From contig JADFIF010000015.1 of the NCBI GenBank assembly GCA_022566795.1, positions 1-33,166 of the forward strand: DNA of 33,166 nt, read 5' to 3'. Shown piece by piece: positions 29,829 to 32,752 of this stretch; position 1 is the stretch's first letter; every line of letters starts with the position of its first letter. The DNA is from Chloroflexota bacterium. GTDB taxonomy: Bacteria; Chloroflexota; Dehalococcoidia; Lucifugimonadales; G022566795. The notes under the pieces are model-generated. The model was not told the DNA's origin. It ran no database searches and was given only the letters and a program-made list of their open reading frames with translations. The position numbers and the translations under genes are program-made.

Positions 29829-29912
29829 TTTTCCACATTACGAATCCCACCTTCCATAACTGGCGTCAGAGTCAGCATAAATTGGTGGGCAAAACTGCTC
29901 CAGGAGGGTTGA

Positions 29913-30197
29913 ATGGCCGACGAAGGAAAGTTTGAAATCGAGATCATCTACTGTGTGCCTTGAGCGCATTTCGGTACGGCGGCCTGGATGGCCTCCGAGT
30001 TCTTCGCGGAAGGCGGCAAGGACGTTGCGATCAGGCTGACGCCCGGCGTCGCTGGCATTCTGCAAGTGTTCGTCGATGGCGACAAGCTCTATGACAAGAA
30101 AGAAGAGGACGGACAGTTCCCGAATCTCCCTCGTGTGAAGCAGATGCGAGCTGTCATCAAGGACAGGCTTGGCGCGCTTGTGGCGGCTGACGACTAG
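29913..30197 (+). CDS. SelW-like Rdx-family selenoprotein with in-frame UGA (Sec at codon 17, TGA 29961-29963)
   Basis: AGGAGG SD (29902-29907), then ATG: MADEGKFEIEIIYCVP-U-AHFGTAAWMASEFFAEGGKDVAIRLTPGVAGILQVFVDGDKLYDKKEEDGQFPNLPRVKQMRAVIKDRLGALVAADD*. CxxU at the canonical Rdx CxxC/U site; PGVAGILQVFVDGDKLYDKK...GQFP matches the SelW/Rdx pattern. Confidence 0.93.
29977..29997 (+). promoter_or_regulatory. Candidate bacterial SECIS element
   Basis: CGG(C)GGCC-TGGAT-GGCC(T)CCG: 4 bp upper stem, 1x1 mismatch, 3 bp lower stem, apical loop UGGAU with G in the second position. The loop starts 21 nt after the TGA. Confidence 0.6.
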
Positions 30198-30222
30198 TTT
30201 GACCACATAGGTAGTCAATGGG

Positions 30223-30256
30223 GGCCTCGGTCACTCCGGCCGGGGCCTTTCTTTTT
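30223..30256 (+). terminator. Intrinsic terminator downstream of the SelW-like gene
   Basis: GGCCTCGG-TCACTCCGG-CCGGGGCC (8 bp, one G-U) followed by TTTCTTTTT. Confidence 0.85.
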
Positions 30257-30343
30257 GTCCGTCGCCGCCTTGACACGGGCCTTGCCGCGCATGACAATGG
30301 GGCTCGCCCCTCTGAACCCAACATAGGTGGAGGCAACCCAAAC

Positions 30344-32752
30344 ATGGCCAGCGCGCTGGACGGTATTACGGTTCTCGACCTAAGCGACGGCATGGCTGGG
30401 GCCCTCGCCGGCATGTTTCTGTGCGACAACGGCGCCCGCGTCATAAGGGTCGACACTCCCGGAACCGAGGAGCAGCGAAGCGACCCCGGCTACGCCGTCT
30501 GGGATCGAGGAAAGGACAGCGTCTACCTCGACCTGTACCAGGCATTTGGCGATGCGAATATGGTCCCGCGTGGAGTCGGCGACACGGCTGTGAACCGGCG
30601 CGCGCTAGCTCATTTCCATGAACTCGTCATCGGTAGCGACGTGTTGCTCGAAAGCTTGGCGCCCTCGTCTGCTTTCCAGACCTTTGTCAGCTATGATGCG
30701 CTCTCGTCCGCGAATCCCCGACTAGTGCACTGTTCAATCACTGCCTATGGCCCAGAAGGGCCGCTTAGAGATCAGCCCGCCGACGACGACCTTGTCATGG
30801 CCCGGGTTGGCATTCTCGCTACCCAGCCTTCCTCACGCCCAGGACCCATACACGTGATCCACCCGCTGCCGAGCGTCGGGGCGGGCATATTGGCCGCTCA
30901 AGGCATCACCGCGTCGTTGTACGCCAGAGAGAAGACGGGCAGCGGCCGGAAGGTCGACACCTCGCTGATGGCGGGTGCCTTGCTGTTTGCGCCAAAGGCG
31001 AATGGGGAGAGACTGAAGCAGCGCACACTTCAGAGGGCTACGGTCGGTGGCGGGCCGTTCTACAGCGCTTTCGAGTGCGCAGACGGCACCTGGGTACAGT
31101 TGGGCTGCGTCCACAATCGCTTCGTCGGGCTGGCCGCGTCGGTCATGGGCATTGAGGACGCCATGGCCGATCAGAGATTTGGCGACGGGCGCAATGTGCC
31201 TACCGAGGAGGCTCGCAGGGAGCTATATGGCATGGTCGGCGATGCGATAAAGACCAGGCCATACGAAGAGTGGGCCACGCTGTTCGAGGAAGCCGATGTG
31301 CCGTACGCCCAGGTCTGCACGACCCAAGAGGCTATGGACAATCCCCAGGTACGCGTGAACGACATGGTCATGCGAGGGGACGATCCGGCGTTTGGCGCCA
31401 TGTCGCATATGGGCCTGCCGATCAAGCTTACGGGTACGCCTGGCAAAGTAAGGGGCCCGCGCCCTGTTCCCGGACAGGGCACCGATACCGTGCTGTCGGG
31501 GCTGTCCGGAGCCAAACGTCAGGCGAGCGACGGGCCGGTGGCGCCCCGAGCGGACACCCTATCACAGCCTCTCGCGGGCGTGAGGGTGTTGGAGATAGCC
31601 AACGTGATAGCCGGTCCCACCGCCGGGAAGCTACTCGCCGACCTTGGCGCCGACGTGATCAAACTGGAACCTCCCGAAGGGGACATCTCCCGGCCCACCG
31701 CCCCTCCGTACTTTTACCTCCTCAACTCCAACAAGAGGTCGATATCGGTCAACGCTCGCACGGAAGAAGGAAGAGAGGTGGTGAAAAAGCTTGCCACCCA
31801 GGCGGACATCCTGGTGGCCAACATGCGCCCTGGGGCGACGGACCGGATTGGCATTGGCACCCAAGCGTTGGGCGGGCTGAACCCCTCTATCATCGAGGCC
31901 CACGTGACCGCGTTCGGCTGGACCGGCCCATACGCGCACCGGCCCGGCCTGGACCCATTGGCCCAGGCCCTCATCGGGTTGCAACGGGCCCAGGGTGGTC
32001 CGGAGAACCCGCCGGTCTTCCTCGGCCGGTTGGCGCCCAACGACTACGTTGCCGGCGCAATGGCTACGCTGGGCGCCATCATGGCGCTGTTCGCCAGAGA
32101 GCGCACAGGCGTGGCACAGCAGGTCCACACCAACCTCTTGAACGCGGGCATCGTGATCAGCTCCGGAGAGTTTATGAGGTTTCGGGGCAAGCCCCCGCGC
32201 CGCCTTGCCGACAAAGAACAGTACGGCCTCGGGGCACTCCACCGCCTCTACGAAACCGCCGACGGCTGGATTTATCTGGCGGCAGAAAGCGACCAATGTT
32301 GGGTTGGTCTCTGCAAGGCGCTGGACCGAGAGGACCTGGCGAGCGACCCGCGGTTTGCATCACCGAATGCTCGCGCCGAAAACGACCTGGCGCTGAGTCT
32401 CGAGCTGGCGCAAACGCTCTGCCGGCACCCGTCGGCGCACTGGCTGAGGATACTGGAGGACGCGAAAATCCCGTGTGCGCCCGTCGTCGAGGAGTACGAT
32501 GAGGGCTTCTTCTCCGATCCGCACGCTACAGCCAATGATATGGTCGTCGAGCATCATCACCCCAATATCGGGAGCTACGAACTCTCCCGAAATCTGATAA
32601 GACTGGCCGCCACCTCCAACGTAGACGCCCGCTCGACGCCACTGCTGGGCGAGCATACGGCCGAGGTGCTCGCCGAGGCGGGGTACCCCCCGGAAGACAT
32701 CGAGGCCCTCTACCGAAATGGCGTCGTCAAGACCGAAACGCCCGCGCCCTAG
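30344..32752 (+). CDS. CaiB/BaiF family CoA transferase, tandem two-domain protein
   Basis: Two homologous halves: LDGITVLDLSDGMAGALAGMFLCDNGARVIRVDTPG... and LAGVRVLEIANVIAGPTAGKLLADLGADVIKLEPPEGD... ATG at 30344 after GGTGGAGG. The track start at 30218 would overlap the terminator. Confidence 0.92.
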   Translation: MASALDGITVLDLSDGMAGALAGMFLCDNGARVIRVDTPGTEEQRSDPGYAVWDRGKDSVYLDLYQAFGDANMVPRGVGDTAVNRRALAHFHELVIGSDVLLESLAPSSAFQTFVSYDALSSANPRLVHCSITAYGPEGPLRDQPADDDLVMARVGILATQPSSRPGPIHVIHPLPSVGAGILAAQGITASLYAREKTGSGRKVDTSLMAGALLFAPKANGERLKQRTLQRATVGGGPFYSAFECADGTWVQLGCVHNRFVGLAASVMGIEDAMADQRFGDGRNVPTEEARRELYGMVGDAIKTRPYEEWATLFEEADVPYAQVCTTQEAMDNPQVRVNDMVMRGDDPAFGAMSHMGLPIKLTGTPGKVRGPRPVPGQGTDTVLSGLSGAKRQASDGPVAPRADTLSQPLAGVRVLEIANVIAGPTAGKLLADLGADVIKLEPPEGDISRPTAPPYFYLLNSNKRSISVNARTEEGREVVKKLATQADILVANMRPGATDRIGIGTQALGGLNPSIIEAHVTAFGWTGPYAHRPGLDPLAQALIGLQRAQGGPENPPVFLGRLAPNDYVAGAMATLGAIMALFARERTGVAQQVHTNLLNAGIVISSGEFMRFRGKPPRRLADKEQYGLGALHRLYETADGWIYLAAESDQCWVGLCKALDREDLASDPRFASPNARAENDLALSLELAQTLCRHPSAHWLRILEDAKIPCAPVVEEYDEGFFSDPHATANDMVVEHHHPNIGSYELSRNLIRLAATSNVDARSTPLLGEHTAEVLAEAGYPPEDIEALYRNGVVKTETPAP

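Follow-up and report, generated by a model that had tools for sequence, protein, structure and literature searches.

The window, by which we mean the whole stretch of 33,166 nt that was analysed, comes from an uncultured marine Chloroflexota bacterium and carries a predicted selenoprotein gene of the Rdx (SelW-like) family together with the following features:

29902–29907, plus strand: Shine-Dalgarno sequence AGGAGG, 5 nt before the ATG, read from the sequence
29913–30197, plus strand: Sec-Rdx (SelW-like) gene, 94 codons plus a TAG stop, from translation with TGA as U, Pfam PF10262 and homologues
29952–29963, plus strand: redox motif CVPU (C14–U17), from the same translation; C14 and C/U17 are invariant in the alignment
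29961–29963, plus strand: TGA predicted to be read as selenocysteine, from 165 homologous sites and the genome's Sec machinery
29977–29997, plus strand: predicted bacterial SECIS hairpin, CGG.GGCC[UGGAU]GGCC.CCG, from fold, covariation and a published model
30218–32752, plus strand: two-domain CoA-transferase family III (CaiB/BaiF) gene, a neighbour outside the mechanism
30220–30250, plus strand: predicted intrinsic terminator at which the Rdx transcript would end, from a consensus scan

One frame joins the ATG at 29913, the TGA at 29961–29963 (codon 17) and the TAG at 30195–30197, and because the codon directly preceding the ATG is itself an in-frame TGA, the N-terminus cannot extend further. 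For this locus a mechanical ORF list gives 29988–30197 alone (69 aa). The preliminary description had taken that ORF for the distal part of a 94-codon gene running through the TGA from an ATG with an AGGAGG Shine-Dalgarno sequence, had placed the TGA at the second redox position of a CxxU motif, and had expected a gene caller to drop or truncate the gene; the frame, the translated C14-V-P-U17 and the 69-aa entry bear it out on each point. Decoding of the UGA as selenocysteine would therefore cause ordinary gene finders to shorten the gene. Seven single-TGA frames with a cysteine three residues from the TGA occur in the window, and by eye only the 29913 frame yields a protein-like product; the others were rejected as chance-like. 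An antisense ORF (29838–30218, minus strand) with tblastn matches in relatives was also rejected, as it has no Pfam match and mirrors the sense codons.

The Rdx gene seems to be free-standing and is followed by a predicted terminator (the consensus scan returned 2 sites in the scanned stretch against 0.7 expected). Because the first ATG of the CoA-transferase open frame coincides with this terminator, the true start of that gene probably lies further in. A CoA-transferase III gene also follows Rdx in L060, L062, L067 and L031, and in L047 one adjoins Rdx on the same strand; we saw no sign of a functional link between the two genes, though their order is kept in near relatives.

Searched with selenocysteine at residue 17, as the preliminary description had proposed, the read-through protein matches the Pfam Rdx profile PF10262 at 45.1 bits (cut-off 22.6, E 1e-11), with residues 8–77 aligned to profile positions 1–70 of 74 and the TGA site inside the match. 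The NCBIfam model TIGR02174 (CXXU_selWTH) scores 28.5 bits, below its threshold of 34.2, and the Rdx placement therefore rests on Pfam and on the fold. The best NCBIfam match, SelTWH_Campy (NF041051, E 1e-7), is likewise a Sec/Cys SelT/W/H family, but its 32 bits, where the cut-off is 88, put the window protein outside that subfamily.

An AlphaFold model of the read-through protein (pLDDT 81) has the secondary structure E7-14 H20-37 E38-45 E50-54 E57-61 H72-93, with the CxxU motif placed after the first strand (7–14). The top 22 PDB structural matches to this model are all SelW/Rdx proteins, comprising bacterial SelW-related proteins and mouse SelW (2npb, TM 0.78), and PDB sequence matches are six bacterial SelW-related chains, 2ojl, 2oka and 2fa8 among them. 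The solved bacterial proteins (2oka, 2fa8, 2obk, 2ojl, 2p0g and 3dex) share the fold at 27–38% identity by structural alignment but have cysteine where the window protein has selenocysteine, as aligned for 2ojl, 2oka and 2fa8 and presumed for the others. Mouse selenoprotein W, with the CxxU motif established for the family, is itself a selenoprotein of the same fold but is only 19% identical. Fold and motif together suggest that the window protein acts as a thiol/selenol oxidoreductase.

Of 59 genomes searched by profile, the window's own and 58 relatives, 46 contain Rdx. The named collection gave 80 Rdx loci, the nearest of them, at 80–89% identity, from SAR202 and other Dehalococcoidia/Chloroflexi MAGs, which points to a host of the SAR202 type within Chloroflexota; a search of the phage collection found no Rdx homologues. 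At the position of U17 the alignment offers 165 sites, almost entirely from SAR202-type Chloroflexota: the codon there is TGA in 100, TGT in 41, TGC in 23 (64 Cys) and GAT in 1. The profile-search and named sets partly overlap, and deduplication leaves 94 Sec and 63 Cys sites. The Cys homologues are full length in the alignment. Upstream of the TGA, where the preliminary description had pointed for a check, homologues are conserved and carry TGA or Cys at the site. Relative to the two nearest named relatives, L060 and L067, dN is 0.03 upstream of the TGA and 0.05–0.06 downstream, with dS at least 0.9, and in more distant relatives synonymous change likewise predominates on either side. Judged by these substitution rates, purifying selection holds both upstream and downstream of the TGA. 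On a tree of 155 proteins Sec and Cys forms cluster by clade, with at least 5 switches between them.

TGA-Rdx occurs in 41 of the 59 genomes. Seven genomes have neither a full selB nor tRNA-Sec, and six of these are also without TGA-Rdx (p 0.002); the seventh, G046, has TGA-Rdx and a truncated selB. G020, G026 and G046, which carry TGA-Rdx and no full selB, were considered as exceptions and rejected: with tRNA-Sec or a truncated selB present, they are read as incomplete assemblies.

Several relatives carry more than one copy side by side. A tandem pair is found in 17 (L082–L086, L088–L091, L093, L096–L099, L101, L102 and L104), always Cys-Rdx and then Sec-Rdx, with the Sec codon 334–382 nt further on; one carrier, L085, is the cultured Candidatus Lucifugimonas marina. 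Behind the Sec-Rdx gene of L154 (G020:C10) lies another copy, in which the redox motif is lost (YSLSD, with GAT replacing TGA), perhaps a non-redox partner. In L171 (G042:C37) the reading frame of a TGA-Rdx copy is broken part-way, by either pseudogenization or an assembly error.

The preliminary description had reasoned that a host of a real Sec-Rdx gene needs selA, selB, selC and selD or acquired Sec insertion capacity, and family searches recovered all four genes from the genome (2.77 Mb, 85% complete, in 189 contigs of which the window is one): selA at 498 bits, selB at 344 bits (cut-off 242), selD at 391 bits with its own TGA in SCAGU, and selC, the tRNA-Sec, at 70 bits with anticodon TCA. 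Both selA and selB are full length and have no TGA codons inside. The host selD (L024:1501-2421) is thus a predicted selenoprotein in its own right, with the TGA of SCAGU falling on residue 11 of the stretch that matches. Two further Rdx genes, L001 (G000:C34) and L002 (G000:C73), have TGA at the same CxxU codon; one is 71% and the other 37% identical to the window protein, and L002 terminates at a normal TGA stop.

Whereas eukaryotes place the SECIS in the 3' UTR, in bacteria it lies within the gene. The candidate hairpin, which is absent from the preliminary description and was detected in this analysis, starts 13 nt past the TGA, with its loop, UGGAU, 21 nt past it, and has a stem of 4+3 pairs (7) around a 1x1 mismatch at −13.2 kcal/mol. 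A bacterial SECIS model specifies a loop of 3–9 nt with G in the first two loop positions, an upper stem of 4–16 bp, a distance of 16–37 nt from the UGA and an MFE of at most −7.5 kcal/mol (PMC13188914), and the hairpin agrees with it in loop size, loop G, upper stem, spacing and energy. It has no excess stability over dinucleotide shuffles (z −0.1 to −0.3), and shuffling of synonymous codons separates Sec from Cys genes weakly (p 0.06). Because stability is near chance in these tests, we dropped it as SECIS evidence and built the case on covariation.

The stem is closed by pairing of the third base of codon U+7 with that of codon U+9. This closing pair is Watson-Crick in all 59 Sec genes that encode Ala-Trp there (C-G in 47, T-A in 10, G-C in 2), compared with 11 of the 45 Cys genes that have Ala at U+7, and the three inner stem pairs are formed in 85/94 Sec genes versus 12/63 Cys genes. 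Where U+7 is Ala, its codon has C as third base in 47/61 Sec versus 11/45 Cys genes (p 7e-8); at the control Ala, U+6, third-base C preference does not differ between Sec and Cys genes. All p-values here serve only as a guide, since related sequences are not independent. On the tree the U+7/U+9 pair type changes at least six times, a count that takes in one mismatched G-G type. The stem is missing from nine of the 94 Sec genes (L045, L049, L052, L056, L058, L144, L145, L173 and L174; for example GCC ACG TGG ATG GCG), whose SECIS may be shifted or of another kind.

Computation thus establishes the reading frame, the family and fold of the protein, the Sec machinery, the covariation of the SECIS and the selection on the gene, and these bear on several other accounts of the locus. 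A cysteine codon misread as TGA, or mutated to it in a pseudogene, would be in keeping with the fragmented assembly of 189 contigs at 85% completeness and with the frame-broken copy in L171. However, the three Rdx paralogues of the genome all have TGA at this position, as do 100 of 165 homologues drawn from many assemblies, and purifying selection maintains the codons on either side. Such recurrence, in two paralogues and in about 100 homologues that were assembled independently, makes an assembly error very unlikely, and we assign the error or pseudogene account as a whole a negligible probability. Equally hard to credit is a start at ATG 29988 or nearby that leaves the upstream part untranslated: it matches the ORF-caller output, but the resulting 69-aa protein would lack both the redox motif and the first strand of the fold, purifying selection acts on the upstream codons, an ideal Shine-Dalgarno sequence precedes 29913, and Cys homologues are full length. 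An in-frame TGA by itself would appear identical if TGA were reassigned genome-wide (to Trp, for instance) or read through by a near-cognate tRNA, with no selenocysteine involved. Yet full-length selA and selB are free of TGA, the L002 paralogue stops at an ordinary one, homologues have Cys and never Trp at the site, and the genome encodes selABCD including tRNA-Sec, which makes this account exceedingly improbable.

The window gene therefore almost certainly encodes a SelW-like selenoprotein of the Rdx family in which UGA 29961 is decoded as selenocysteine. We propose that ribosomes would initiate at 29913, that the hairpin at 29977–29997 would recruit SelB carrying Sec-tRNA-Sec, that SelB would deliver selenocysteine at the UGA in place of termination, and that translation would continue to the TAG at 30195. 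Insertion at this codon is very well supported by the comparative data, from which we infer that it takes place in cells.

What such a selenoprotein does is a separate matter, and to our knowledge the function of bacterial Rdx proteins is not settled. Roles other than general thiol/disulfide exchange, among them selenium handling, a dedicated partner (as in methionine sulfoxide or peroxide reduction) and regulation, are taken together possible though unlikely; the three diverged paralogues (71% and 37% identity) and the tandem Cys/Sec pairs suggest separate roles, while the redox-protein fold and CxxU motif give no pointer to different chemistry. More speculatively still, the expanded set of paralogous Sec-Rdx genes in SAR202-type Chloroflexota might make up a selenium-dependent redox relay specific to the lineage, with Cys and Sec paralogues cooperating, and might explain a large share of the SelW-like signal that is unassigned in ocean metagenomes.

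SelW-like selenoproteins were described in Sargasso Sea data in 2005 (PMC1088965), and in 2008 Global Ocean Sampling yielded 427 Sec and 56 Cys sequences of this family, making it the prokaryotic selenoprotein family of highest abundance in that survey and placing it among the most widespread marine selenoproteins (PMC2398784). The Sec-Rdx at 29913 is a further member of this known marine family, which it resembles as a small, abundant, marine Rdx/SelW protein with CxxU and in having, downstream of an in-frame UGA, a hairpin whose loop contains G. It differs in that the earlier sequences are environmental with unnamed hosts, whereas the window gene has a probable SAR202-type Chloroflexota host with paralogues and the full machinery, and in that covariation of SECIS pairs is seen for its family. 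A 2006 survey counts three selenoproteins in Chloroflexi (PMC1794560), and a sponge study reported enrichment of SelA/SelB in bins of symbionts from various phyla (PMC5649159). We found no report joining SAR202 with selenoproteins in the literature searched, which takes in few subscription-journal papers and no preprints, and the paper on cultured SAR202 makes no mention of selenium (PMC10444878).

Our analysis ties the SelW-like family, whose earlier ocean sequences had no named hosts, to SAR202 Chloroflexota. It also indicates that plain ORF calling truncates Sec-Rdx genes in this lineage, and that comparing Sec with Cys forms of Rdx makes a SECIS stem recognisable through covarying codon third positions. 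The closed genome of the cultured SAR202 species Candidatus Lucifugimonas marina (CP046147) contains both Sec-Rdx and the Sec machinery, with selB and tRNA-Sec, and because the tie to SAR202 includes such a species, the role of the family is testable.
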